This document shows positions 27,985-55,720 of a DNA stretch of 64,000 nucleotides, one piece after another. The notes beneath the pieces were generated by a model. That model made no database searches, had not been told where the DNA came from, and saw only the letters and a list, made by a program, of their open reading frames with translations. Made by a program: the position numbers and the translations under genes. The stretch is taken from the NCBI GenBank assembly GCA_021234155.1, contig JAJEKV010000020.1, positions 20,203,018-20,267,017 on the forward strand, given 5' to 3'. Numbering within the stretch: position 1 is the first letter of the stretch; every line of letters begins with the position of its first letter. The DNA is from Isoetes taiwanensis (lineage: Eukaryota; Streptophyta; Lycopodiopsida; Isoetales; Isoetaceae).

Positions 27985-27988
27985 TAAT

Positions 27989-28010
27989 GGGTAAAAGCAC
28001 GCTGTGGTGT
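27989..28010 (+). repeat. Left terminal inverted repeat
   Basis: Begins GGGTAAAAGCACGCTGTGGT. The only mismatch to the right end is A versus G at position 6. Just inside, at 28031-28043, is CGCCACATTTTGG, which recurs in direct (not inverted) orientation near the right end at 37868-37880. Next to it a self-complementary ACCACCTTTGTGGT occurs, paralleled at the right end by ACCACAAAAGTGGT. Confidence 0.9.
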
Positions 28011-28217
28011 ATCAAAAATGTGCATTTTGACGCCACATTTTGGCACCACCTTTGTGGTAGAATCGGGTGGTGCATACCGAAGCGGAGATTGCGGGAGTGC
28101 GAATTAATGAGCATCGATTATTTTGAATTTTATGCCACGTCATTGTCCACCTTTTTGAATTAAGAAAGAATCACCTCTTCCTCTGTTTTTTTGCCGCTTC
28201 TTGCCGATTGAACCCTA

Positions 28218-30830
28218 ATGGAGTCAGAATTGAACGCCACTGGTTACACGATGAAATCTCTCCTCAAACAAGAGATTGTGCCCCACGAAGATCTAAAGAA
28301 GCTTTGGGGTGACAGAGTTCCAAATAAATCTGGCTACAGGTATTTTCCCCCAAATGTTTTGTTCAAACTGCAAAAATTAAGGCATATGTTTTCTTGTACA
28401 GGTTGAAGAATCTGAGCAATGAACAATACAAAGAGTTCATGCAAATTTACAAAAGAATTACAGGGAAGCCACATACATGGGGCGGAATGGCTCCTGGAAC
28501 CTGGGCAGTGGCTTATTATCTGCATATAAAGGGGGAGGCTGTTAATTGGAAGAGCTTCTCGGATTATTATAAAACTCTCGATGAGAAAGCAGAGGCCAGT
28601 TCTTCTAGACCCAAGAGAAAGCATAGGCAAATCCAACCTGACGAGGAGGAAAATAGTAAAAGTGACAGGGATGATGAAGATGATAGGGAAAAAACCAAAT
28701 CAGGTTCCTCTAGACCACACATTCAATCTGAACTCACAATCAAAACAGAAAAGCAGAGCAATGTTCTGAGACCAAAACATGTTCAATTATTAGTTGTGTT
28801 ACAACAGAAAAAAAATCTCAAGCTTGATCTAGTTGTTTCTATCAACACAGAAAAGGTAACATCAAATCCACTTCAAGAATCAGGTATGTCTACTACCATT
28901 TTGCATCATGTTGGCTGTATTGTCATGTTGTGTCTCTATGATGCCATCGTGGGGCATTTTGCAATGGATGCCGAAATAGATGAGGTATGTGTGGTGGTGG
29001 TGAGTTGTTGGCATCCACCATGTCCCACACCACACCCCACGATCTCCCACCACTACACTCTACCATCTCCCACCGCCACACTCCCACACCACACCACCAC
29101 CACCACACACCACCACCATCACCACACTCCTCCACCACCACCACCACTCCACCACCACCACCACATTCCACCACCACCACACTCCACCACCACCACACCA
29201 CACCACCGTGACTCCACCATGTCCCACACCACAATCCACCACCACCACACTCCACCACAACCACACCACACCCCACCACCACACCCCACACTCCACCACC
29301 ACCACACCACACCCCACCACCACACCCCATCACCACACTCCACCATGTCCCACACCACACTCCACCACCACCACCACCACCAAACCCCACCACCACACCT
29401 CACCACCACCACACACACCACCACCACCACCACCACACACACCACCACCACCACCACCACCCCACCACCACCACCACACACACCACCACCACCACCACAT
29501 CGTGTTGTGTGGTGTGTACTGTGCAGCGTATGTTGTGTGGTGTGTGGTATGTGGTGGTATGTAGAGACTACCTTGTGTTGTGTGGTGTGTGATTGTGGTT
29601 TTCCATCAGTACGTGGCTTACTATTTTAGGAGGCTGACATATACGTAGTGTTTTGTTTTGCAGACTATGGCAGACTTGTGAAGGAATGGTTGGCTGCAAC
29701 ATCAGCTAGGTTTGATAGATGCAAGCAACGATTGCAAGCAAACGAGGATAGGAAAAATGATATCAAAAGAAAGATTGAGTTGATGGAGCATAAAGCATCA
29801 GAAATTAGAGCTGATTTGCACAGATGGCAATCAATCATGACAGCAAATCCGAAAGCAGCAGAGGGTGTTTGGGTTGTAAGCGAACTAAATGATGAAGAGC
29901 TAAATGGTACAGTGTTGCCTGGGCTGAAACAATTAAATAAGGAATTAACAGAAACTGAAATTGAGCTAAAGGCATGTGAAGACTTACTGCTGGAGCTGCT
30001 ACCTCGAATGCAAAGATTTGAGATTTTTTCTGAGCGTAGTAGTCATGACACTCCTTTAGATCCTGCACTTCCAATGCTTCCTGAGGCAGAAGAAGAGGGT
30101 GATGAAGGTTGTCCATTTTGTGGACGTTGTCTGAAATGGGAGGGTAAAATGTTGCCAGTTGTGATAGCAGAATGCAGTCACCAGTATCACATTCCATGTC
30201 TATCACACCATTTGAGGTAAATATTATCATCTCTAACCCTCGTCTAAAGACTCTATTGATTTTGGTTTTGCAGACACTCTAGAACCTGCTGCAGCCCCAG
30301 TTGTGGCCACATTATGACTGAGACATTTTGGTGTTCGAGTGGTACCACAAGAACCAATAGACACAAGTAAGTCCTTTTGCTGGCTTAGTCTCTTTTGCTT
30401 GTCCTGTTTATTGTATCTAAAGTGCCCCCTGGGATGAGATCGCTCGCTCATTTTAGGGGGCACTTTAGATATATATAAACAGGAACATCGAAAAGAGAGT
30501 AAAAAGCCTGGTGCGTGACCCTCTTGAATGGTTGTCAACTCACCAGGCTTGACATTGTTCGCTGCAAACAATATAGATTCGCTGCAAACAAGTGCCTTAA
30601 CTAATGTTTACTGATGTTGTCACAGGTCTACTGACTTAGTGTTTGCAGAATTGCAGAAATTTGAGACCAAGGATATCCAACAGTTATCCACGCCTCGATC
30701 AGTTATGAGACTGCAAGATACCTCCCGGTTGTACCTAGAATTCACCCCATTTGATACTCCTAAGTCAATCCCAGCTGCTGACGGCGTGGAGACTCCAAAA
30801 CGAAATTTGGATAGTCAACTGAATGCAAGC
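28218..30830 (+). CDS. Transposon cargo gene, 5' part: coiled-coil and RING-like zinc finger protein
   Basis: Five exons join in frame with good splice sites: 28218-28339, 28402-28883, 29664-30216, 30274-30366 and 30626-30830, about 485 codons. ATG at 28218 is the first in an open frame. Residues ~40-100 form an unrecognised globular block (GGMAPGTWAVAYYLHIKGEA). Then comes a basic/acidic linker (RPKRKHRQIQPDEEE), a long charged helix likely to be coiled coil (~215-330), and at ~350-400 a zinc-binding cluster CPFC-x17-CSHQYHIPC-x8-CCSPSCG resembling a RING finger. RING fingers usually mark E3 ubiquitin or SUMO ligases. The downstream phosphatase exon follows in frame, so this is probably one protein. 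No stop or frameshift was found in this part. The zinc cluster lacks perfect RING spacing, so 'RING-like' is the safe term. Confidence 0.65.
28990..29515 (+). repeat. (CCACCA)-rich low-complexity tract in intron 2
   Basis: About 500 bases made almost only of C and A in CCACCA/CACACC units on the strand that is sense for the cargo gene. It lies within intron 28884-29663. Immediately 3' (29510-29600) the strand asymmetry flips to GTGTGGTGTG. A long artificial frame of His/Pro/Thr runs through it; this is not a protein. Confidence 0.9.
30387..30500 (+). ncRNA. Long imperfect hairpin in intron 4 (pre-miRNA-like or nested MITE)
   Basis: The left arm 30387-30429 pairs with 30456-30500 along about 43 positions with few mismatches. 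The core TCTAAAGTGCCCCC/GGGGGCACTTTAGA is perfect, followed by bulged TTTAT/ATAAA and CCTG/CAGG, then TCTCTTTT/AAAAGAGA. The loop is ~26 bases. Size and pairing suit a plant microRNA precursor, but a small foldback transposon would look the same. It lies wholly within the intron 30367-30625 in sense orientation. Whether it is transcribed or processed cannot be told here. Confidence 0.5.
30504..30550 (+). repeat. Second intronic hairpin
   Basis: AAGCCTGGTG (30504-30513) and CACCAGGCTT (30541-30550) form a perfect 10-bp stem with a 27-base loop, three bases after the larger hairpin. A duplicated ATTCGCTGCAAACAA-like phrase follows at 30556-30592. Confidence 0.75.
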
Positions 30831-30913
30831 GTATGAAGCGGCACCGATGCCACATACATGATTTATTTTTGTATTTTTTACGTGGTCTTCCCGATTTCAA
30901 TTATGTTGCAGAG

Positions 30914-31860
30914 ATAAATGCTACTGCAACTGGAAGCCATGACGAAGAGATTCCTAGTGCATCTGATTTAGGGGGGAAAATTAATTCCCTTGAGATTCAT
31001 TCTGTACGGGGTCCTTCACCAGAAAAAAGTTTTGGTGCTGAATATGAGCCAAATGCGGATGCAGGTGATGAAGTTGACAAAGAAACCCCGGATCCTGGAC
31101 AAGATGCAGACTGCTCAACGAGTCCAATACAACCTCAACCAACAAAAACCAAGAGGTTAACTGAAATTCTCCTTGTTCTGGATTTTAATGGGGTTTTAGG
31201 CAAGTTTTATGACTTGAAAGAGAGGATCCCTACATCGGCCGAGCCAGAAGTAACCATCCAGAAATTGAACCATCAAAAGTTCGCAGTTTCCAGGCCTGGA
31301 TTTCAAGAGTTCTTAGAATGGTGTTTTTCAAAATTTGAGATTGCATTGTGGTCCAGCATGGCTAAGAGTAAAGTTCGCAGTTTCCAGGCCTGGATTTCAA
31401 GAGTTCTTAGAATGGTGTTTTTCAAAATTTGAGATTGCATTGTGGTCTAGCATGGCTAAGAGTAATGTTGACTTGTTGACGAGAAAGTTGCTGCAGGAAT
31501 ATAAGGGCAGATTTCTTTTTACTTGAAATTAGGATGACTGCACCAACACAAAATTAAAAGTGGTTAATAAGCCAATTTTCCTTAAGGATCTGTCCAAAGT
31601 GTACCAGAAATTTTGGAGATACCAGGTGACAAACACATTGTTGATAGATGACAGCAGATATAAGGGTTACGCCAACCAAAGAACACAATGATATGTCCAA
31701 ATAGTTTTGCTCCGACGGGTTGGATTCCAATTTCCTTTTGGAGCAACTCAAACCATGGTGGAGGGACTTACGGCTGCGAGAAAGTGTGCCGGCTTATGTG
31801 AAGGAACATCAAATGTGGAACATGTGGGATTCTCAAGAGTCAAGAATCGCATGAAAATGC
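30914..31860 (+). pseudogene. Transposon cargo gene, 3' part: FCP1/NIF-type phosphatase domain, disrupted
   Basis: FCP1/NIF (NLI-interacting factor-like) phosphatases are haloacid-dehalogenase-fold enzymes that dephosphorylate serines, classically in the RNA polymerase II tail. After an acidic linker, LTEILLVLDFNGVLG at ~31163-31202 is the DxDGT/V catalytic loop with N in the third position (DFNGV). RPGFQEFLEWCF and IALWSSM follow as in the family, then LLQEYKG, DDCTNTKLK, IFLKDLSKVYQKF, LLIDDSRYK and SFAPTGWIP in order. The second half is broken. A 94-bp tandem duplication (31276-31463) shifts frame, two in-frame stops replace what were probably W and Q just before DDCTN (~31525), and 1-base shifts occur near 31688 and 31795. 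The domain is recognisable end to end. Confidence 0.8.
31276..31463 (+). repeat. 94-bp tandem duplication inside the phosphatase exon
   Basis: Bases 31276-31369 recur at 31370-31463 with a single substitution seen (GTCCAGC versus GTCTAGC). Because 94 is not divisible by three, the duplication frameshifts the gene. Near identity implies it is younger than the surrounding decay. Confidence 0.9.
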
Positions 31861-31984
31861 TTTCGACAAGTATTTTCATAAATGAATCTTGTAAAACTCT
31901 TTGAAAGTCAATATAAGTAAAAAAAAATCTATGATATGTGTTGTACTTTTTCAATTTAAAATATTTGAATGGAATGTGAGCAAA

Positions 31985-32900
31985 TGTTCTCGTGTGTGTT
32001 TAGAACTAGAGATGATAGAGCTTCGGCAGTCCCTGACTATCTAAAGCCAAATACACATCCGGAAGTGGTCTTTGAGTGGAACTGGAATCTGTCGTGATTA
32101 GCTCCACCGACATCAAAATTTTGGAAGCTGATACGCAGTGGTTCAATGATCAATTGATCCTCCTCTTCTCAAGGTGATACTTTCATCTGATTTGTGATCA
32201 TCAAGATTGTGCCAGATGATATGCATATGTTTGTAGATACATGGAATACTACTTGATTCTCCAAGGAATGAGCCATCCCTTTCATTTCTTTGACCCTCTT
32301 TTTCACTCAACATTGTCCAAGGACACAAATAGTTACAAAGCAATAAGGAAACATGTGAATCGGATAAGTGCCGATTACATGTTTTTGCCCCGCTTGTGAT
32401 GGACATCATGGACGTTTTTTCGATTGTAAAACGCGTGTCTCGCCTGAGATATAAACTAGGGATATATCACTTTGATAGCTCGGGCTTGCATGGCGAATGA
32501 CATATTGAGAGGTTAGTGCTTGCTCATTGCATTTCTTTGTTGTGGCACAATGACAACAAACTTTGAGTGCGGGGTTCCTCGGAATTGCTTGGACACAATA
32601 ATTTCAGCTTTATAACCTCGGATGTTGTGAAAATTTCCAGAACGCCTCTTCAAACCGATGGTCATTCATGTGGCCCTGCCGTATGTTCGTTTATGTACAA
32701 ATTTGTGAGGGGGTACTTAAAAGGAGTGAATATATTGTTGCCTGATCTAGTAAGTCAACTTAAATGCAGTGCAGACAAACCAAACGGTTATTGACAAAGT
32801 GTGGTTAACTACGGAGGTTGTGGACATTTCAGACCAAGATCTAGTTGATGTTAGAGTGTTCATGCTTGAAGTTTTAAGATTAGAAGCAACAAAAGTTTGA
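31985..32900 (+). pseudogene. Ulp1/SENP-type cysteine protease domain, disrupted
   Basis: Ulp1-family proteases mature SUMO and remove it from targets. Across frames the order of family motifs is kept. VISSTDIKILEADTQWFNDQ (~32093-32154) is the N-terminal 'W.nD..i' element; HPFHFFDPLF follows a likely intron (~32176-32236). The catalytic His region GHH lies at ~32401, the Asp region YHFDSSGLHGE at ~32465, and QTDGHSCGPAVCSFMYKFV at 32651-32707 supplies the oxyanion Gln and catalytic Cys. Stops and single-base shifts lie between them, and the C-terminal helix continues in another frame to a stop at 32898. It could be a separate second gene or the 3' part of the RING-phosphatase gene; no clean promoter or start separates them. 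Confidence 0.75.
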
Positions 32901-33331
32901 ACCGAGAGGAACATATGTATTGGGAAATATGTAGGTGCATGAGTCACCTCGTACTTAAATCATTGTATATCTTTCTTATGTACATAATTGTTATTGTAAC
33001 CTCGATTCATTTCAATGAAAATTCATATTCAATTCATCTCACAAACAAAGGAATCAAGTGTTTTGTAAGAATTCAAATCTTCAAAAGAAATCAAGACAAA
33101 CTCATTTTCACAATTTGAAGCACAAGACTTCACATGAGTTTGAAAACTACTGAGAATGGTTTTACATTTCATCATCATCGAAAAGAACCCGGGTAAATTA
33201 CGTAAAATTTTCTCCTCATCTAAAGGATCCATCTATATCTGATCTGTTTTTGGCGTTTAGTTGGTGGCATGTGAAGTCCGATTGCACAGTCGTGTTGTGA
33301 ATACTATGCCTAAAGCGTCTTTGCGCAAAGA

Positions 33332-35045
33332 TCATAGGCGGCCGGTTGATCTTGCGCCCTTCTTGTAATACATACATTCTATGACACTATCACCGGTGAG
33401 GTACCATGTTCCATTGAGTTGGAAGTCTTTCTCCACTATCCATTTTGGTTTTGTGCACATCGAGAATCCAAAATTCAGAACCCTCATCATTCCTTTTGAA
33501 CAACGACAAACAAAATTATCACCAACTCTAAGTGCCTCTGCTAACATCGTGGGATTGGAGGAGAACAAGGACTCTTTGGATTTACTGATCCTCAATGTCA
33601 AGATGCACATTGGAGGATGGTACAATAACTTGAAGTTTTCAATCATCAGCGTAGTGCTTGTTCACTAACTGTCCCACATGCCATCCAAGCGGTAGGAGCT
33701 TGAAGCATGAAAGTTCCCTCGTGTGCAACCGCCGCGGGGAGATTGAGGATTGAATGCATGTACACAATGGATGCGCCTAGTGTCCAAAATCCTTTTACGC
33801 ACCCCATGCTTTCTTTCTATCTATATCCTCCACCTTGACTTCCCAAAAGAACCTTTTTTATATTCTTCCTCTTCTTGGTTTTCAGATGTGTTCATCCACT
33901 CGGATGTTCCACAAGTAAACATCTCTTCGGCAACTTCTACCACTTCATGAGCATTACCCAATTTTATGTCTTTGTATTTTTAATTGCGCTTGTCTTAACC
34001 ATCTCTTCAACTCGGCGGACTTTGCCATCGTGTTCACCTTTCCGTGGTTAGAACCAAAAAAATTCCACATCATATAGACATCGATTGTCGTTTGTGTACC
34101 TAGCCATAAAGTAAAATGGTCTAGAAGCCTTGAATTGAGATCTTCGCACCATCCGAAAACATATAATGTCCTGTTTGGAACCCCTTCCTTTACGCTCCGG
34201 ATATTTGTGGTGCTTCATGAGCGGTGTTGCCCGAACAAAATATCGTGTTCCCTATCATCGATACATAGTAATGTGTTTCCTTGATAATCTCATGCGCCGC
34301 CGAGTCATCTTGATATGTTATTTGAACCAAAATGGTAATCGGTTATTGACCCGGCGCGATCGGCGCACCTCCTCTTGTTTCTTGAATGTATAGTTTCTCG
34401 CAAAATCCACTACCGAGAGACATGCATCTGGGGGGAGATTCTCGAAGCTCCTTAAACTATTTTACACGCCATTGGTTTTTGAAATTATGCGGTGGAAAGA
34501 TTTTTAGGCGCTCTTTCGGTTTATCCGAAGCTCCTTGGGTTACGTCTCATTGTCTTGATGAGTGGGTCTCCTACGAGAACTTCGAGGCGTTGTCTTTTTC
34601 ATAGTCAATGTACTCCCATTTCACTTTCCTTCGCCACTTCCTTCCATGGGACAGTGCGAAACTTCTTGATTCCACACGACTCACAATTTCCAAGGATGCA
34701 CGCCTTCTTGTGAAACTCATCTAATTCACTCTTTGGACACAATATAGATCTCCACAAGCTTCTGTACTTGCAATTTTATCTTTGGTGTGCCCTGCATTGA
34801 CCAAGTTCATGTGATCTACAAACATCGCAGTGCAAGTGCAATTCTTCGGATGTTTGGTTCTCATCCCATTGAGTCCATCCACTAGCATTTGCATCCTCCG
34901 TCTTTGAATGCAAAGCAACTATTGAAGTCCTTCAATTTCACAACAAACCGTGGTTTTAGCTTCTCAAAAGCTCTAAGACGAATCTTAATTTCGGATGTTG
35001 GTCGTAAACCTCTTGAACAATAGGCTGCATGAAATGAACACTAAA
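33332..35045 (-). pseudogene. Transposase, exon 2 (DDE-type, plant TIR element), decayed
   Basis: The exon starts after an acceptor (CATCCCAACAG on the minus strand at 35046). Motifs in order, across several frameshifts: FEKLKPRFVVKLKDFNS; CTCTAMFVDHMNLVNAGHTK; ELDEFHKKACILGNCESCG (Cys-rich); VVDFARNYTFKKQEEVRR (first acidic residue, ~34385-34420); HYYVS; FSDGA...SQFKASRPFYFMARY (second, ~34120-34175); and WNFFGSNHGK with EHDG (third block, ~34020-34065). The C-terminus is RVLNFGFSMCTKPKWI with LNGTWYLTGDSV, ending at the stop at 33332. The D-D-(D/E) layout with 'DFA.NY', 'SDG..QFK' and 'FF...HGK..HDG' is shared, as I remember it, by transposase-like proteins of mosses and lycophytes. At least five frame changes make it inactive. 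Confidence 0.7.
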
Positions 35046-35189
35046 CTGTTGGGATGTGTATACCACACCAAACCATGCACCATACCATGCCCCACACTCA
35101 TCATATTCACTTAAGCGAGCACCTTAGTCTGTGTACATTACCACACACCACACCACACCCCACCACACACCATACCATTCACCACACAC

Positions 35190-35690
35190 CATACACCAAA
35201 TGGTGGAGTGTGGAGTGGTGGTGGAGTGTGGTGGTGGTGGAGGTGGTGGTGCTTGGGTGGTGGTGGTGGATTGTGGTGGTGGGGGGTGGTGGAGTGGTGT
35301 GTGGTGGTGGTGGGGTGTGGTGGTGGGGGTGGTGGTGGAGTGGTGTGTGGCGTGGTGGTGGGGGGTGGTGGTGGGGGTGGTGGTGGAGTGGTGTGTGGTG
35401 TGGTGGTGGGGGTGGTGGTGGTGGTGGTGTGTGTAGTGGTGTGTGGTGCTATGATGTGGTGTGGTGGAGTGTGGTGGTGGGGTGTGGTGGTGGGTGGTGG
35501 TGTGTGGTGGAGTGTGGTGGTGGTGGAGTGTGGTGGGGGGGTGTAGTGGTGGTGGTGTGGTGTGGTGTTGTGGATTGTGGTGTGATGTGGTGGTGGTGGA
35601 GTGTGGTGGTGGTGGTGGAGGGGTGTGGCGTGGGATGTGGTGGGATGTGTGTGCATGTGGTGGTAATGTGGTGGTCGCAAAGATGTGGTG
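35190..35690 (-). repeat. (GTGGTG)-rich tract in the transposase intron
   Basis: About 500 bases of GTGGTG/GTGTGGT on the plus strand, so CCACCA-type in the sense direction of the minus-strand transposase. It lies inside the ~1.9-kb intron 35046-36988. It mirrors the tract at 28990-29515 in the other gene. Long frames through it are artefacts. Confidence 0.9.
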
Positions 35691-35799
35691 GTAGTCTATG
35701 GTGGTGGGATAGATGGGGTGTGGTGGGGTAAGAGGGGAGAATAAATAAAATTGAATCCACACATATCATACACACCCACATGACACCATGGACATAACG

Positions 35800-35855
35800 C
35801 AACCCACACCACACCACACCACACCACACCACACCACACCACACCACACCATCAC
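35800..35855 (+). repeat. (ACACC)n microsatellite
   Basis: About ten perfect copies of the pentamer ACACC in the same intron, followed by CACATCACATCACATCAC. It is separated by ~110 bases from the GTGGTG tract and has opposite strand composition. Confidence 0.9.
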
Positions 35856-36099
35856 GACACCACACATCACATCACATCACTTTTATCCTATTTCGTCTGA
35901 CATAAAAAATCTGCCTAGCCTGCTCTCATAAACACTTCTGAAATTCGTACACCCTGATAATAATTACATTCCTCTTCTAATCATTAGAAAAGGATCGGGT
36001 CCTAAATCCTCGTTCCTACGTCTGATTTTTGGCGTTTCATTCCCAATTCAAGCCAAATAGAAACAGGTTCATTAAGGCAACATGGTAGGATCCATGTTG

Positions 36100-36569
36100 A
36101 GAGATCACTACGGCTATTGTAGGGTGACCGAGGAGGGCATTTAGGCACATGTTAAACAGGGGCTCGTGATCAATCTCTCAAGGTGGATATGCCTAAATCC
36201 ACCTTCTTTGCTGATTTGAATCCAACCTAAAGGCATACAACAGACCGGATTTGGGCCTTCAATGGCTATGCTTGGAGTCGATTGATTGGGAGAGCTCTTA
36301 GACAAGGTCCATCAGCTTATGTTACATGCTGCTGCAAGGGCAGTTGGTATATTTGTTCTCTGTCACTTGTCCGCTCGACTCTGCTTGCGCGGGTTTTCTT
36401 GGCGAGAATTGCGTACTTACCACCCGAGGAGGATCACGGGAAGCAGCGGCAAACCTCATCTGTTAAATTTGGGATGACTGCAGAAAGCTTAGATGCTTTA
36501 GTGCAGAAAACAATAATTTTGGATGCACCAGTTCTCGAGCCAGTCATACCAGCATTTCCTGTTGCTTAG
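36100..36569 (+). pseudogene. Unidentified plus-strand coding fragment inside the transposase intron
   Basis: The most open reading (36282-36569) ends MTAESLDALVQKTIILDAPV then LEPVIPAFPVA and a stop. The same stretch in the adjacent frame reads GELLDKVHQLMLHAAARAVG and FVLCHLSARLCLRG. This suggests a frameshift inside a once-longer protein C-terminus. It lies antisense to the transposase. I do not recognise the family. A captured host gene fragment or nested insertion is likely. Confidence 0.35.
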
Positions 36570-36988
36570 GATCATGCATGTAAATTTAGTTCTCGGGTAC
36601 AGAGCTTTCAATGGAAAGCCAAATTTTGTAAAGCCAAATTTTGTAAGATCCTTTTTTTAATATATATCATACTTTCCAACAGAGTTTGCTTGAATCGACA
36701 AAAAAATTGTCTTTATTCAACAAAAATTTGTACCTCGGGATCGGAGTTAGTTATAGCTCAAATATTTTTAGACTGCATACACACACCCAAAAAGGAGTAC
36801 TCAATTTGTCATGTTCTAATAATATTCTAAACATTAAACATTGCATTTTAGGACTAGAGTCAACTACACACAATTCACATCTTCGCATCAAGATACACCA
36901 TAATCACTATACAACACAATAACCACCACATGCACCACCACACTAAGCACCATAACTAAGAAAACATGAATAACAGAAATAAACTAAC

Positions 36989-37654
36989 CTGTGAGTTCTC
37001 AATCCAAAATTTTTGAATCTTTTCTATATGTTCATCTGAAATTGCATCGAATCTTTTAGCCCTCTTGTAAGAAACCCATTTCCCACCATTGTGTCGATCT
37101 CTTCCCTCTTTTTTCTTTGCTTTTTTTGCGGGTTTCTTGGGTGAACACCTAATACCTTTCAAGATCTCATTTGGCTGATTTTGTCACTTGTTTGAGAATG
37201 CACTTGCGGCGTGTGTGACATTATTGCAAAGGCGGCTATTATTCTTGGCTGCTAGGCGGTCATTGCTGGTAGAGAGTTTGACGGTCTCCGCATGGAGTCC
37301 CAGAGGCTCCTTATAGCGATGCTCTTGGCTTCCGGATCCTTTAATTCTTCACCTATGAATTTTTCCAATGTTTTATCCCTCAAAAATCAAGTAAAAATTT
37401 CTTTCTTCGTGCTATCCTCCATTCTTTTGGTCCGTTTTATGGAAAGGCGTTAGCAAATTAAGGACAATACTGGCGTTCTTTGCTTGCACTTCTTGATGAA
37501 CCGGATCATACGCCAATTCACGCAAGCTCAATTTTTCTTCTCTTCTTCTTTTCCTCTGGCGTCTTTTCTTCAATATTTCTTGTTCCTTGGTTCTTCTTCG
37601 TTTTCTTTTGTCTGAAATGCCGGTTTGTGTACAGATTACCTCATTGACATCCAT
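36989..37654 (-). pseudogene. Transposase, exon 1
   Basis: Reads from ATG at 37654 (MDVNEVICTQTGISDKRKRR) into a very basic stretch rich in K/R. It continues after a frame change with KTLEKFIGEELKDPEAKSIA, RPSNSLPA and IIAAFAIMSHTPQVHSQ. Near the end come KWVSYKRAKRFDAISDEHIE and KIQKFWIENSQ, then a GTTAGT donor. The 'FW.eNs..SP' phrase is typical of the N-terminal half of this transposase family. Two in-frame stops interrupt it. The start lies ~275 bases inside the right TIR, a normal promoter distance. Confidence 0.6.
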
Positions 37655-37906
37655 ATCCACAATGGATTGGAGCTCGCAGCAGGGAGGGAGCCAAAGAACA
37701 GGACGTAGGCAAAGAACAGGAAGGGGCCAAAGAATAGGAATTTGAATTTGAATTTTAGTTTTTGAAATTAGAATTTCCCCCACAGCTGAGCGGGACTCTA
37801 TTTTTAAATACCGGCAGCTGAGCGGTGCCATAATTATACTTTTATACCACAAAAGTGGTGGATGCAACGCCACATTTTGGGGGGACAGGGGGACAGCCGA
37901 ATTGGA

Positions 37907-37928
37907 ACACCACAGCGTGCTTCTACCC
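37907..37928 (-). repeat. Right terminal inverted repeat
   Basis: Read on the minus strand it begins GGGTAGAAGCACGCTGTGGT, matching the left end. It is followed on the plus strand by TAAT, identical to the four bases before the left end. Confidence 0.9.
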
Positions 37929-37932
37929 TAAT

Positions 37933-42157: not shown

Positions 42158-42985
42158 TCAGAAGTGAACTTGGTCCCTGTTCTTCTTCAGCTGAATAGCC
42201 AAATGTGCATGGTATCTATGTTCATCAAGCTGCTCTAACTCGTCCAGTCTGTCCTGCACATATGCGACATGCCCCAACTCTTGTGCAGCAGCAATTCTTA
42301 AAGAAGGGACCTCCATCTCATAAGGCACTGCTTCATGGCCATAAACCAACTGAAAAGCACCTTTCTCATGTGTCCTGTACGCCAAAGGGCAGCCTGTAAA
42401 TATGTATGCCAATCATGACCATGCTCAAAAATCACCTTAGTGATGATGTGTATCAATTGCTTGTTGGTACTTTCTGCCTGGCCATTGCCCTGGGGTAATA
42501 AGAGCTTGAAAAGACGTGTCTCAGTTTGATCTTGTTGATTAATTCCTGCATCAGCTCGTTCATAAAATGAGAACCCCTATCACTTAATCAATACAAGAGG
42601 GATACCATATCTGCAACATACTTATTGATACACAAAAGTACAAACCACTTGAGCTGTTGCAGCCTTTGCTGGAATTGCCTCAGCCCACTTAGTGAAGTAA
42701 TCTGTGGCCATAAGGATGTATTGGTGTCCAGAGAATGACATCGGGATTGGGCCTATGAAATCTAACCTCCAAGTGTGGACGGGTCCAAAAATAGGAACAA
42801 TGGCTAAGTCTGCAAAGTTGGCTCATTTGGGTTGATGAAATTGGTAGGCTTGGCATCTTAGGTATGATTATGGGCGTCCTTGAATAAGGTGGGCCAATAA
42901 TAGTCTGCTCACAAGATTCTCTTGGTTGTAGCTTGCCTAGCGAAGTGAGCTGAACAAGCACCATTATGACACATCTCCAACACAT
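42158..42985 (-). pseudogene. Ty3 integrase core and C-terminus, decayed
   Basis: Fragments read RTPIIIPKMPSLPISSTQMS and RRPNPDV-like text, then WAEAIPAKAATAQVV-type sequence in a shifted frame (~42650-42700). Finally FQLVYGHEAVPYEMEVPSLR appears at 42158-42412, the typical 'P..LVYG.EAV.P.E...PSLR' after the DDE core, followed by LEQLDEHRYHAHLAIQ. Several frameshifts and stops. Integrase inserts the cDNA into the host chromosome. Confidence 0.7.
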
Positions 42986-43637
42986 ATTGTTGTTCCTCTT
43001 TGCTTAAACACATCTGGAGTACCCCATCAGCACTTCTACGACAAAGTATACCATCAACAAGCAAGAATTGAGATAGCTTCCACTTTATTCTTCTCTGTTC
43101 TGGGCCTATGAAATGATCTGGCAAGTCTAATCCATGTAATAAGTATATGTAGAACAACATCCATGAGTCTTGGATGAATATGCAAGCCGAGCTTTCAGCC
43201 ACCTCTTCTGGAATGATGTCCTCCTCCATGAGAGCATACGGCAAATACCCACTTGGATTGCTGAGAGTGTGAGCTGATTTAATTGCAAAGTCAAATTGTG
43301 CCAGGTAAGACATCCACTTTTGATGCTTAGCCTTCTTAAGGCTCTTCCCTGATATCAGTGGCATGGGATTCTTTTTCATGATGATTTCAGTGTGCTCCTT
43401 ACGTAGAAGGTGCTCATGCCTATGAAATAAGAACACCAATGCACAAGCATACCTTTCTAGTACAGGATATCTGTTCTCCACATCTGAAAATTGCCTCTCG
43501 GAGTAGCAAATTATATCATATCCCTTCGTCTCATTCTTTTGACATAAAGCAACCCTGATGGCCCACTTAGTTACTGTGACAAATGCATTGTAAGGACGAC
43601 CGTCTTGTGATGGCACTAAAACTGTAACACTTGTCAT
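42909..43637 (-). CDS. Ty3 RNase H and integrase zinc-binding domain
   Basis: A 242-codon frame. It begins in the conventional Ty3 RNase H (PYNAFVTVTKWAIRVALCQK, YSERQFSDVENRYPVLERYA, MPLISGKSLKKAKHQKWMSY), whose first catalytic Asp is not evident. The linker follows, then an integrase N-terminal zinc domain ending YVLEMCHNGACSAHFARQAT, with the H-H-C-C pattern partly kept. No stop interrupts this module. Confidence 0.75.
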   Translation of the reverse strand: MTSVTVLVPSQDGRPYNAFVTVTKWAIRVALCQKNETKGYDIICYSERQFSDVENRYPVLERYACALVFLFHRHEHLLRKEHTEIIMKKNPMPLISGKSLKKAKHQKWMSYLAQFDFAIKSAHTLSNPSGYLPYALMEEDIIPEEVAESSACIFIQDSWMLFYIYLLHGLDLPDHFIGPEQRRIKWKLSQFLLVDGILCRRSADGVLQMCLSKEEQQYVLEMCHNGACSAHFARQATTKRIL

Positions 43638-43704
43638 GATCTGCAGTAATTTATCAAAAGCATCTTGGCATTTTAGTTACTGTGACAAATGCACCGGTGT
43701 ACTT

Positions 43705-44616
43705 TTACTTTGCCCCTTTAAGAGCTTCCCAACACAGGTAAGCTTGGTAATTGGACCCATTAAATGTGAAAATTTTGGAATATGTATCTGTTTTGGGCAC
43801 AGATAGCTTATGAATGATTTCGATCTTCTTACTTGAAATTTGTATCCCTCTGGTTGAAACATAGTGCCCCAAAAGCACTCTTCCGTCACGAAAGAACTGG
43901 CACTTAGCTGGATTAAGACATACTTGGGATGCTCTGCTTAAGGTCAGCACTTCCTCCAACTATTTTAAGTGAACCGCACGTTTGTTAGCCAAGCATAAAT
44001 TGTCAAGGAAGATGCCTAAACCTTGCTGGAGCATGCTGCGATATGTCACTGCCATACACCTCTGAAATGTGGCAGGAGCGTTCATTAAGCCAAAGGGCAT
44101 CACATTCATGGCATAGGTGCCCCAAGGCGTGATGAATGCAGTTTTTGGCCTATCTTTCGGACAAATAGAGATTTGGTTAAAACTGTTAAAGCCATCCATG
44201 AATGAAAATACCTCCTGCGTAGCCGCTTGATAAAGTATCTCTTCTTGGAATGGTAAGGGGTAATGATCCTTCAAAGTGGCCTTGTTCAAGTCTTGATAGT
44301 TCACACATACTCTGATCTTCTTGTTCGTTTTTAGCACAGGGACAATACATGATACCCACATCGGATTTTCAATCTCATATATAAAACCAACCTGCAACAA
44401 TTTGTCAAGCTCTTCTTTCACCATATTGAGCAGGTGCGGGTTAATCCTCCTCAGCTTGTGCTTGACCGGCATCACTTCTTCTTTTTTATTGATATGGAAC
44501 TCACAAACCTTTGGAGGTATTCCTTTTAGCTCCCCATAGTCCCAAGCAAAATAGTCTGCAAACTTGTTAAACATTTTGGTCAGCTTTGATTTTTCTTTCT
44601 CGCAGCCATTCTCCAA
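43705..44616 (-). pseudogene. Ty3 reverse transcriptase, active site altered
   Basis: The frame 44616-43960 carries FADYFAWDYGELKGIPP, VSCIVPVLKTNKKIRVCVNY, FSFMDGFNSFNQISI and MPFGLMNAPATFQRCM in normal order. The YxDD box reads IFLDNL, so the second catalytic Asp has become Asn. A frame change near 43960 leads into the thumb/connection, LNPAKCQFFRDGRVLLGHYV. The RT family is unmistakable; the altered DD makes polymerase activity unlikely. Confidence 0.9.
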
Positions 44617-44753
44617 TCTTTAAAGTTCTCTCCTTCCCATTCTTCACAACTGTAATCTCAGACAATTTATTGGCACTTCAGTAGATATAGTAAAAATTTC
44701 GCATATGTGTTGTCCAGAGCCCTGTGGCAGCTCATCTTCTCTCACCACTCCCT

Positions 44754-50639: not shown

Positions 50640-52187
50640 TCAAGTGAAAAATATGGATGTATATCTAGAGCCACTCATCGAAGAGTTGCAAATACTATGG
50701 AAAGGGATCCAAATGCATGATATAACTAGGTCGCCTCAGGCATTTACCTTTCGTGCTATATGTTGTTTCACCATTCATGACTACCCAGGATTTGGCTATG
50801 CATCAGGTGTGTTATACATATTATAAATTTGTATTCTAGGCTATATCCTTTGATGATTGTATAGTTTTTCTCATCTTTCATTTCTTAATGCATAGGTTTG
50901 CAAACAAGTGGAAAGTTTGGATGTCCTTCATGTGGAGTCGAGTTGCCATCTTATCGCTCGAAGCACTTATATAAGCAAATATACCGTGGCCATAAAAAAT
51001 ATTTGCCACCTGCACATCACATGCGTGGACGTATAAACACTGGAAAACCAAGAAGAAGAACTCCCAAGGATTGGTTAGATACTTGGGTAGAAGCTCGTAC
51101 ATCCCAAAATTTGACTGATGATAGTTTGGTGGTTGCACCCCCTGGTATGAAACGACTTTCCATTTTCTATAGCCTTGAGTACTGGTCACAGCTAAAAATT
51201 GCACACTTGCTCGACCCCATGCATATCTTTAAAAATGTCGGCCACTCATTATGGAGACATTTAATTGGTGATTGTGATACTTTGGCCAGTAGAAATGATT
51301 TGAAGGATCAAAACATAATGCCGCAATTATGGCCACCACAAAATGGACGGAAGTGCAAAAGTGCACCTTGGGTACTAAGCAAGAAAGAGGAGAACCAAGT
51401 CAAACAGGTTATATCTAGTATGAGAACACCCACGGGTTATGCTGCATCCTTGCGCAAGGCATTCACCAGAGATGGTGAGCTTAAGGGATTGAAGACACAC
51501 GATTGGCACAAGTTTCTACAAGTAAGTATTGAATTCCTTTTGTAAATATATAAAATTGCATTTAGTTTTTACATACATTTTGCATTTGTTGCATCATGCT
51601 CGACAATGCATTATAATTCAATTTTGATACCAATATTTGCTTTTTATTTTAGCATGTTCTACCATGTGCGATAGATAAATGCCTGACACCAAAAATACGA
51701 GATGTCATTTATCGGTTGGGAAAGTTTGCAAGGTACAAAACCTATGACTTGTTAGTTCATTATGTGAAATTGTATTAATAGCAATATTATGTGTCACAGG
51801 TGGGTTTCCTTAAAGGAAATTAATGTGTCTGATATACCAAAAATGGAGGTTGAAGTTGTTGAATTATTATGCATCTTAGAGCGAGATTTTCCTACCAGTT
51901 TTTTTGATCTTCAAGTACATCTTTTGATACATCTCCCAGAGGGGATTCGCTTGCTTGGGCCAGCTCCTGGACGTTGGATGTTCTTTTTGGAATGGTATAT
52001 GAAAGTTTTAAAAGGTTTTGTTCGTCAAATGGCTAGACCAGAAGGATGTATGGCAGAAGGGCATTTGGTGCAAGAGATCCTTTTCTTCATGACTGATGCC
52101 ACCACATCAATACAAGGGGATGCTCCACATATATGGAAGAAAGAGCTTGCCCCAGATTTTTGCTCACAAGGAAAATTTCTTCCATAG
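50640..52187 (+). pseudogene. CACTA TNP2-type transposase, truncated at both ends
   Basis: Exons at about 50640-50806, 50896-51531, 51653-51732 and 51800-52187 have good GT/AG edges. Exon 1 carries MDVYLEPLIEELQILWKGIQ and FTIHDYPGFGYASG. Exon 2 carries FGCPSCGVELPSYRSKHLYK, the 'P.H..R' region and HLLDPMHIFKNVGHSLWRHL (the 'D.MH..KNV' hallmark). Exon 4 carries LERDFPTSFFDLQVHLLIHL, GPAPGRWMFFLEWYMKVLKG and ARPEGCMAEGHL. These are TNP2 (Transposase_21) landmarks. The N-terminal third is missing, and the protein stops where the LINE begins (~52190). TNP2 binds the 13-bp ends and catalyses excision. Confidence 0.88.
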
Positions 52188-53832: not shown

Positions 53833-54205
53833 GGATGGATGGAATGGTGGGTGAAAAGCGCCAAAATATAAAAAGCGGCTCAAAATCAGGGGCAAGCAAA
53901 TTTATAATCAAGAAAAGCAAGACGATGGATTTGAGAACTCAACTCCAAGCAAACTCCCTTGGATCAGCAAAGAGAATATAAAAATTCAAGTTGAGAGAGA
54001 AGAACTCAAAATTGCTAAAGGTTGGAAGCTAAAAGCAAAAAATCGGGGAACTTAAGGATGATGAGAGGAGTAATTCAAGTATTTCTTCATCAAAGCTAAA
54101 GGGAGGGCTAAGAGAAATCAGATCTATAGTGTAAAGGTCAATGGCAATCCCATCTCTGAGGACAATGATCTTAAACAAGCTGCTACAGATCACTTTAAGA
54201 GAATA

Positions 54206-55720
54206 ATGGGAACCTCTCCTACTACTATGGAAGAGAATATTGACAATTTCATTCAGATTCAGAGATCCATCCAAGATGAGCAGAATGAAAGCATGAATGC
54301 TCCTTTTACCAATGAAGAATTGTGGGCAAATGTTTCAGGTATGGAAAATGGTAAGACTCCGGGTCCTGATGGCCTCCCAGTGGAATTTTTTAAAAAAACT
54401 TGGAATATTATTGGAAATGAGGTTACTAATGTGTGTAATGAGTTTTTAATTCTCAGGAATCTAGACTGCAGAATCAATACCAGCTTTATCTCCTTGATCC
54501 CTAAAATAGATGAACCTGAAACTTTCTCTGATTTCAGACCCATATCCCTCACCAATGTTATTTACAAAATCATCTCTGCTACCATAGCCTCTAGACTGAA
54601 ACCTATTCTGGATCTTACCATCTCCAATACCCAAAGTGCTTACCTAAAGGATAGGTCCATTCTAGATAATGTAGCCACAGCTATCATTGGCATGCATTGG
54701 GCTAAAGAAACTAAACAGGACATTGCCCTGCTCAAACTGGATATTACTAAGGCTTTTGACACGGTCAGCTGGAGTTTCCTCTTCAAATGTTGTCAAAAGA
54801 TGGGGTTCTCCCAGGAAGTGATAAGTATTTTTCAAGCCATCCTTTACAACTCAAGATCCTCGGTTCTGATCAATGGAGAATGCAGCCCTTTCTTTGAGAT
54901 AAAGAGAGGCGTCAAGCAAGGTTGCCCTCTCGCCCCTTTTCTTTTTCTTATAATCATGGAAGCCTTGAATTGTGCTTTCAAAAAAGCTGACCAGGAGAAG
55001 AGAATTGTGGGACTTAAACTTCCTGATAATCAAGAGGCATGTTTTTTCCTTAATGCTCACTTTGCAGATGACACTTTTCTCTTTGTCACTATGGAAGAAA
55101 GATCCATCACAAACACCCAAATTGTTCTCCAAGACTTTGGTAATTGCTCGGGATGTAAGATCAACCCTCTCAAATCCAAACTCATTGCAAGAAATCAGGT
55201 AAAAGGGCAGCAAACTGCCCAAACCCTTGGCTGTGAGTATCTCTCCCCAATTACTAATAAATCTAAAATCTTGGGTATTCCTTTTGCTTTAAGGACTAAT
55301 GCTAGTAATCTTTGGGGGGATATTATTGAGAAGTTCCACAGAAAGGCTGATCTCTTAAACAGTAAATATCTGTCCAAAAATGGAAGAGCTATCTTAGCCA
55401 ACTCGGTCATTTCTTCTTCTCATGTTTACCAGTCTTCTATCCTCTTAGCTTCTAAAAAGGTCACTTCTAAACTCCAAGGCATTTTAGGTAGATTTATTGC
55501 TAGTGGGGGTAGCAACAGAACCTGGGTTCCAGTTTCCATGAAAGAATGTATGAAGAAAAGGAAGCATGGTGGTCTTGGAGTTTTGGATATTGAGAAACAA
55601 GGGCTGGCCCCGGCGATAAATACATTTATAGAGCTGGCCATGATGAGATTAATCACCACGTGTCAAAGCTTATTGATCATTACCTTGCTAAGTGTAAACC
55701 CTTTGGGTGGAGAAATGTGA
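54206..55720 (+). CDS. LINE ORF2 reverse transcriptase domain
   Basis: A 504-codon open frame. Motifs: MENGKTPGPDGLPVEFFKKT, FISLIPKIDEPETFSDFRPI, LLKLDITKAFDTVSW, GVKQGCPLAPFLFLIIME (with QGCP), AHFADDTFLFV (catalytic FADD intact), and RNLSKNGRA-type and WVPVSMKECMKKRKHGGLG tail motifs. It is intact through the palm but its 5' link to the endonuclease is broken by stops at 53834-54205. The RT domain size matches plant L1 elements. Confidence 0.9.
   Translation: MGTSPTTMEENIDNFIQIQRSIQDEQNESMNAPFTNEELWANVSGMENGKTPGPDGLPVEFFKKTWNIIGNEVTNVCNEFLILRNLDCRINTSFISLIPKIDEPETFSDFRPISLTNVIYKIISATIASRLKPILDLTISNTQSAYLKDRSILDNVATAIIGMHWAKETKQDIALLKLDITKAFDTVSWSFLFKCCQKMGFSQEVISIFQAILYNSRSSVLINGECSPFFEIKRGVKQGCPLAPFLFLIIMEALNCAFKKADQEKRIVGLKLPDNQEACFFLNAHFADDTFLFVTMEERSITNTQIVLQDFGNCSGCKINPLKSKLIARNQVKGQQTAQTLGCEYLSPITNKSKILGIPFALRTNASNLWGDIIEKFHRKADLLNSKYLSKNGRAILANSVISSSHVYQSSILLASKKVTSKLQGILGRFIASGGSNRTWVPVSMKECMKKRKHGGLGVLDIEKQGLAPAINTFIELAMMRLITTCQSLLIITLLSVNPLGGEM

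Follow-up and report, generated by a model that had tools for sequence, protein, structure and literature searches.

A two-gene DNA transposon family in the lycophyte Isoetes taiwanensis that pairs a putative transposase with an Ulp1- and NIF-domain gene

Introduction

What might a gene with SUMO-protease-like, phosphatase-like and RING-like parts do between the ends of a DNA transposon? The question is raised by a 64,000-nucleotide stretch of the genome of the lycophyte Isoetes taiwanensis (GenBank assembly GCA_021234155.1, contig JAJEKV010000020.1, positions 20,203,018 to 20,267,017 of the forward strand), which we call the window and whose first letter is position 1 of all coordinates given below. 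An initial annotation, made from the letters alone, had placed in it a complete 9.94-kb transposon with a DDE-type transposase on the minus strand and a cargo of RING-like, FCP1/NIF phosphatase and Ulp1 protease domains on the plus strand. Ulp1-type proteases are carried by several unrelated transposons, according to the passages of PMC2836005 that deal with them. We find that the element belongs to a two-gene cut-and-paste family that has multiplied fairly recently in this species. We also judge it rather likely, from sequence comparison, that the plus-strand gene encodes a single accessory protein acting in trans, in which an Ulp1 domain would remove SUMO and the RING-like and NIF parts would serve binding or targeting.

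A complete element repeated at independent insertion sites

The element occupies positions 27989–37928 (9,940 bp) and ends in 22-bp terminal inverted repeats (TIRs) that are identical at 21/22 positions, the left one, GGGTAAAAGCACGCTGTGGTGT, lying at 27989–28010 on the plus strand and the right one at 37907–37928 on the minus strand. Both are flanked by the target-site duplication (TSD) TAAT, at 27985–27988 and 37929–37932. These borders were obtained by script and reproduce the ends, length and duplication of the initial annotation; a script scan of the window revealed no third copy of the TIR at up to six mismatches. The termini read GGGTA. Just inside them, reading by eye located GCCACATTTTGG at 28032–28043 on the plus strand, with a second copy in like orientation at 37869–37880, and the subterminal repeat CACCACCTTTGTGGTAGAA at 28044–28062 on the plus strand, with an inverted near-copy at 37842–37860 on the minus strand. 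Between these ends two genes lie tail to tail, one running from 28218 to 32942 on the plus strand and the other from 37654 to 33161 on the minus strand (frames read by eye).

Copies were sought across 1,658,258,908 bp of the genome in 1,110 contigs. A 416-bp left-end query returned 553 unscored first-look candidates, 40 of which were then scored and showed 97–100% identity, and a 483-bp right-end query returned 524, with 93–100% identity in the 40 scored. We read 21 copies, namely the window copy and 20 fetched through the left-end search, six of them extended; as expected from that choice, the left TIR is present with minor changes in all 20 fetched copies. Every copy with both ends in view (7/7) carries a perfect 4-bp TSD, and all seven differ: TAAT in the window, then CACA, TTAG, GATT, GCAT, TAAA and, in copy L020, TAAG. 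The right TIR of L020 has mismatches to that of the window at 6 of 22 positions. In the remaining 14 copies the stretch read contains no right TIR, and several of these are split by other insertions. All seven complete copies align to the window element across both opposed genes, at lengths of 9,647–10,787 bp in the six that were sized.

Combining the 40 scored hits from each end gave 11 pairs of a left and a right end that share a contig, are correctly oriented and lie within 40 kb. Because the shortest of these pairs spans 9.94 kb (the range being 9.94–23 kb), no short cargo-free derivative is present among the 11, although derivatives keeping only the extreme ends would escape detection. 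The pattern that the initial annotation had proposed to look for, cargo between TIRs with 4-bp TSDs at independent sites, was found in all seven complete copies, and no short copy with the same TIRs and without the cargo occurs among the paired ends. Divergence of the 21 copies from their consensus, outside CHG (H being A, C or T) and CG sites, is a low 1.4–4.1%, from which we take the family to be fairly young.

A plus-strand gene with coiled-coil, RING-like, NIF and Ulp1 parts

The plus-strand gene can be read as nine exons, whose borders are our own reading of the frames and are predicted from the sequence. Exon 1 (28218–28339) begins with ATG, is open in the 21-copy consensus and joins in frame to exon 2 (28402–28779, end approximate), a charged stretch rich in lysine and acidic residues whose consensus donor site is missing in the window copy. 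The second intron contains a CAC-rich minisatellite at 29014–29499 on the plus strand, delimited with Tandem Repeats Finder. Exon 3 (29664–30216) holds a coiled coil, recognised by eye, and the first half of the RING-like region, with the second half (CCSPSCGH) in exon 4 (30274–30366); a linker exon follows (exon 5, 30626–30838, end approximate). Exon 6 (30912–31869) carries the NIF/FCP1-like domain (PF03031), with LVLDFNGVL and LLIDD, and the Ulp1 domain (PF02902) extends over exon 7 (32004–32173), exon 8 (32237–32511, with GHHWT and YHFDS) and exon 9 (32574–32942, start approximate), the last of which contains QTDGHSCGP and the end of the gene, placed by eye. By script, the joins from exon 1 through to exon 6 are all in frame on the consensus, which is itself shifted inside exons 3, 4 and 6; the joins 7–8 and 8–9 seem in frame by eye. 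The window copy of the gene is broken by many frameshifts and stops and by a 94-bp tandem duplication within the NIF exon (31276–31469, plus strand); in other copies that span this region the match breaks as expected of a single unit.

For domain searches we used both the window frames and a stitched protein, in which frames were joined by hand across shifts on a consensus of 14–21 copies per exon. NIF passes its Pfam cut-off of 21.8 bits in the window frame (E = 8.2e-5, 22.8 bits) and far more clearly on the stitched consensus (E = 9.3e-17, 61.6 bits), in agreement with the domain first proposed. Ulp1 passes on the stitched consensus (E = 6.9e-9, 36.3 bits against a cut-off of 20.7), whereas neither Ulp1 piece of the window copy itself has a Pfam match, so that this part of the initial annotation holds for the family consensus and not for the window frames. 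Among the solved structures of the PDB, the Ulp1 part comes closest to SENP5, SENP1 and SENP2 (best E = 1.7e-5), and the best match of the NIF part is UBLCP1 (E = 0.019).

The motifs are preserved to differing extents. YHFDS is intact in 14/14 copies; GHHWT is intact in 9/14, altered after HH in four and shifted in one, with HH retained in 13; and QTDGHSCGP is intact in 7/14, changed in four and shifted in three. The catalytic His, Asp, Gln and Cys of Ulp1 are all present in the consensus. In the NIF part LDFNGVL is intact in 10 of 19 copies, a further two keep DFN, one reads DFI and six are shifted. Of the candidate metal-binding Cys/His motifs in the first half of the RING-like region, GCPFCGRC is intact in 13/20 copies and ECSHQYHIPC in 8/20.

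The join between the NIF and Ulp1 exons bears most directly on whether these parts belong together. Among 17 copies, one of them unreadable, the join is open and in frame after removal of a GT-AG intron in 8 of the 16 that could be read. The coiled coil, RING-like, NIF and Ulp1 parts are most likely, as predicted here, those of one multi-exon protein. The three cargo domains originally proposed do all lie inside the ends, and are now assigned to what is most likely a single product, with both genes of the element broken in the window.

A minus-strand gene under long purifying selection

The minus-strand gene comprises a first exon at 36989–37654, encoding a basic N-terminus, with borders set by eye and lacking in the window a stretch that other copies retain, and a second exon at 33161–35045 that carries the motifs VDFAENY, SDGA..QFK and NHGKG and is broken here. 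Many frameshifts and stops interrupt the window reading. The repeat-rich part of the intron (35140–35865, minus strand) is mostly GTG-rich on the plus strand and CAC-rich on the sense strand of the gene. As a side observation, CAC-rich minisatellites are found in introns of both genes, each on its own sense strand (29014–29499 and 35140–35865), so that the two tracts form a loose inverted repeat facing each other with about 6 kb between them.

A protein search of the same genome with this transposase gave 11,226 first-look candidates, 100 of which were scored, yielding 112 matches. Frames free of stops were found, measured from stop to stop and judged without the first exon, of 526 aa (91% identity), 593 aa (85%, its start being translated repeat), 494 aa (65%) and 454 aa (54%). 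VDFAEN, DGAASQFK and KGEH are invariant in eight aligned frames. For one pair, L049 and L035, dN/dS is 0.19, and in pairs that include L047 or L048 synonymous sites are saturated at a dN of 0.25–0.38; together these values argue that the transposase is, as judged from its sequence, a protein under long purifying selection.

Its family is less easily placed. Searches of the eight frames with Pfam and NCBIfam gave weak, unrelated matches only (best E = 0.0081 and 0.0037), and no MULE (Mutator-like element) or integrase model of Pfam matched them at E up to 1, which is weak evidence. A PDB profile search gave nothing below E = 0.07, and although the transposase patterns matched 89 stretches in viral contigs and 88 in bacterial and archaeal contigs, none of these was confirmed. 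The DDE-type transposase of the initial annotation stands as a minus-strand gene whose conserved acidic motifs, VDFAEN, DGAASQFK and KGEH, are candidates for the acidic triad of an RNase H-like fold such as would be expected of Sola. Proteins of other plants and animals with the SDGA..QFK motif are presumably Sola-associated, an assumption on our part that no search here confirmed.

Differences between copies cluster at CHG sites

Differences between the copies are far from evenly spread. Columns that vary in at least 30% of copies, counted in alignments of the coding regions together with part of the introns, make up 230 of 670 in CHG motifs and 202 of 4,771 elsewhere (Fisher p = 7e-107). The central A/T of CAG/CTG is changed in 23.9% and deleted in 5.1% of alignment cells, against 2.3% and 0.6% at other positions; the centre of the reversed motif GAC/GTC is changed in 6.4% and deleted in 0.4%, and CG sites outside CHG are changed in 9.3% and deleted in 1.7%. 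Deletions amount to 2.2–5.1% across the positions of CAG/CTG, versus 0.6% at other positions. At the C and G of the motif, C-to-T and G-to-A are the most frequent changes.

Decay of CGG to CAG and of CCG to CTG by deamination can account for some of the substitutions but leaves the deletions unexplained. The methods described for the published assembly of I. taiwanensis in PMC8566536 include R9.4.1 reads, base calling with Guppy 3.1 and polishing with racon and pilon. Because the CHG-linked deletions exceed what deamination explains, the pattern suggests that many of the frameshifts are nanopore miscalls at putatively methylated CHG sites. If so, plant nanopore assemblies of that age may make living transposons look dead. 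The clustering of differences and indels at CAG/CTG may also affect other annotations of the I. taiwanensis genome.

Association of the two genes and variation among copies

An Ulp1 query against the same genome returned 1,386 candidates, 150 of which were scored to give 202 matches. The Ulp1 matches listed were compared with the transposase matches, 100 in number once 12 of the 112 had been set aside as second pieces of loci already counted. At least 39 of the 100 transposase loci have an Ulp1 match on the opposite strand, tail to tail, 1.0–2.8 kb away. Grouped by identity, such a neighbour accompanies at least 28 of 64 loci at 80% or more, at least 8 of 23 at 70–79% and at least 3 of 13 below 70%, and Ulp1 sequence is present in the flank of all 12 of the best transposase loci (L035–L046). 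Beside one stop-free transposase, at L051 (G000:C1066:2383400-2384200), a different and partly open sequence occupies the place where Ulp1 would be expected.

Selection was assessed as the normalised ratio of nonsynonymous to synonymous differences (N/S) among copies, with CHG and CG sites left out. Singleton and shared values are 2.37 and 0.79 for the Ulp1 exons (p = 0.20), 1.53 and 2.00 for the NIF exons and 0.95 and 0.91 for the RING exon. The transposase, by the same test, gives 1.47 and 0.93. Since the transposase resembles the cargo gene in this respect, the test is short of power here, and the case for a function of the cargo gene is founded on its being intact and present in copies and not on a selection signal.

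Weighing the alternative readings

Several results weigh against a working accessory protein encoded by a single cargo gene. The RING-like match (zf-rbx1) stays below the Pfam cut-off in both the window (E = 0.0075) and the consensus (E = 0.014), at 16–17 bits against 31, and CCSPSCGH is intact in only 3/19 copies and shifted in 12; the RING-like domain first proposed is hence visible as a weak motif that falls short of a Pfam match. The catalytic motif of the NIF/FCP1 family is DxD, and here the second Asp reads Asn (DxN, as DFN), so that of the phosphatase originally proposed the NIF domain is retained and the second catalytic Asp is not. The Ulp1 score and the full NIF score stem from frames hand-stitched across shifts, and the NIF-to-Ulp1 join fails in 8/16 copies, the window copy included. 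Variation in the cargo gene looks neutral overall (N/S among singletons 1.43, among shared variants 1.10, p = 0.38), and two divergent stop-free transposases lack an Ulp1 match in one flanking stretch of 801 bp each, a weak negative given that such stretches are short and one may contain another insertion. Lastly, an AlphaFold2 model of the transposase built from eight sequences was too poor to use (mean predicted local distance difference test score 36.8, predicted template modelling score 0.22). Some of these points are what would be seen if the plus-strand gene were a captured host gene riding as a neutral passenger between the ends, of no use to the element: variation among copies looks neutral, the two divergent transposases have no Ulp1 in view, the NIF motif is altered and the RING is weak. 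Against this, the gene is kept in 7/7 complete copies, the consensus retains the catalytic residues of Ulp1 and no short cargo-free pair occurs among the 11 paired ends, while a neutral signal is expected of any gene drifting after insertion and is further blurred by sequence errors; we consider a mere passenger rather doubtful, if still a serious contender. An element of three genes, in which Ulp1 would be a short gene of its own starting about 100 bp past the NIF stop, would suit the eight copies without read-through, and the consensus NIF frame can indeed stop before the Ulp1 exon, which is preceded by a Met-led frame. Yet the other eight readable copies do read through once the GT-AG intron is removed, and the gap leaves very little room for a promoter of its own, which makes three genes unlikely.

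The broken frames could also mean that the family is long dead, its decay real and its copies moved in trans by rare intact relatives. No frame longer than 231 aa was found in the minus-strand transposase region of the copies scanned, indels abound in an alignment of 10 copies, and the prevalence of C-to-T and G-to-A at CAG/CTG is what methylation decay would give. Indels, however, should not track methylation, and the excess of deletions at CAG/CTG, like that of changes at its central A/T, runs counter to such decay; copies are only 1.4–4.1% from the consensus outside CHG and CG sites, stop-free frames exist, and the assembly is described in PMC8566536 as built on R9.4.1 flow cells and Guppy 3.1, so that a dead family appears improbable. 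As to whether these domains form one element at all, the window does contain remains of other transposons, and a small nested segment at 30379–30563 lies inside the element itself; the same order and content are nonetheless seen at seven independent sites, each insertion having a TSD of its own, which makes it extremely improbable that nesting or chance brought the domains together here and rules out a chance or local patchwork. We accordingly continue with a two-gene transposon that carries one accessory protein.

A model for the accessory protein

In such an element the minus-strand protein would act as the transposase, binding the 22-bp TIRs and the subterminal repeats, excising the element and joining it to the target with a 4-bp stagger. 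The plus-strand gene would give rise to one accessory protein, with coiled-coil, RING-like, NIF and Ulp1 parts, that aids the element in trans. Its Ulp1 domain would free the transposase, or host proteins of silencing or repair, of SUMO or a similar tag. A weak RING and a NIF motif of DxN in place of DxD make it likelier that the RING-like and NIF parts bind or target than that they are fully catalytic. An effect on host chromatin or on the Pol II tail, as the initial annotation had suggested, is likewise hypothetical. To our knowledge, a role of transposon Ulp1 in transposition has been proposed and is not settled. In a bolder version, which we put forward as a speculation with limited expectation that it will hold, the accessory protein would be a dedicated counter-silencing factor that combines SUMO removal with action on, or docking to, a partner in phosphorylated form, for example the tail of RNA polymerase II; were that so, the element would continue to be transcribed and to move within a plant genome that is heavily methylated. 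The family, with its numerous similar copies, its separate multi-domain accessory gene and its stop-free transposase relatives within one genome, offers a setting in which the effect of SUMO removal on transposition or silencing can be tested.

Other features of the window

The segment of about 184 bp at 30379–30563 has an internal inverted repeat and is absent from copies L014, L023, L024, L026, L027 and L028; from this it is probably a nested small element. Outside the transposon, the window contains retrotransposon remains on the minus strand at 42912–44619 with RVT_1 and RNase H domains, which we read as of long terminal repeat (LTR) type, and a 548-aa reverse transcriptase frame on the plus strand at 54074–55717 (RVT_1, E = 3.4e-33), which we read as of non-LTR type. 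Pieces of a Tnp2-like (CACTA-type) transposase lie on the plus strand at 50889–52184 (Transposase_21, E = 1.6e-5, below cut-off; DUF4218, E = 2.5e-27).

Comparison with known transposons

Several known groups share features with this element. Among plant DNA transposons, we know of no NIF domain on Ulp1-carrying Mutator-like elements. Those elements resemble the present one in being plant DNA transposons with an Ulp1-like gene, as the initial annotation had stated and as the relevant passages of PMC2836005 bear out, with a role in transposition or repair proposed there. Their TSDs are 7–12 bp in the description given in PMC10741241, as against 4 bp in 7/7 copies here. Ginger1, which carries an Ulp1 or OTU domain and in one family a PHD finger (in the part of PMC2836005 devoted to it), has in common with the element a 4-bp TSD and an Ulp1 domain. 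It differs in its TGTNR ends and CCGG-like targets, where the element ends in GGGTA and has varied targets, and in carrying Ulp1 at the C-terminus of its transposase, which is of the Gypsy-integrase kind; in the element Ulp1 belongs to a separate gene of opposite orientation.

The Sola-like placement of the initial annotation stays tentative, as a likeness in TSD, TIRs and length. The passages on Sola in PMC10741241 give 4-bp duplications, occurrence in a moss, TIRs of at least 11 bp and lengths mostly of 2–9 kb with some above 15 kb, and the element agrees in its 4-bp TSDs (7/7), its short TIRs (22 bp) and a length within the range. Sola2 elements of amoebae carry an accessory gene as well, namely Fanzor1 (PMC3627910), with Ulp1 and NIF unmentioned in the passages that treat Sola; their TSDs are AT-rich motifs, while those of the element are wider in composition (CACA, GCAT). 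The word Sola is absent from the main text of the I. taiwanensis genome paper (PMC8566536), as far as that part of the article goes.

At the level of the domains, the cargo gene belongs to the same families as the NIF/FCP1 phosphatases (PF03031) and the SENP/Ulp1 proteases (PF02902), and departs from both in that the two apparently occur in one transposon gene, with a NIF motif that reads DxN. A limited search of 5.39 million open papers, which did not include the name NIF, found no transposon joining Ulp1 to an FCP1/C-terminal domain (CTD) phosphatase, in line with the initial annotation, which knew of no description of the combined set. Ulp1 on transposons is known; its NIF partner is, as far as our searches reach, new.

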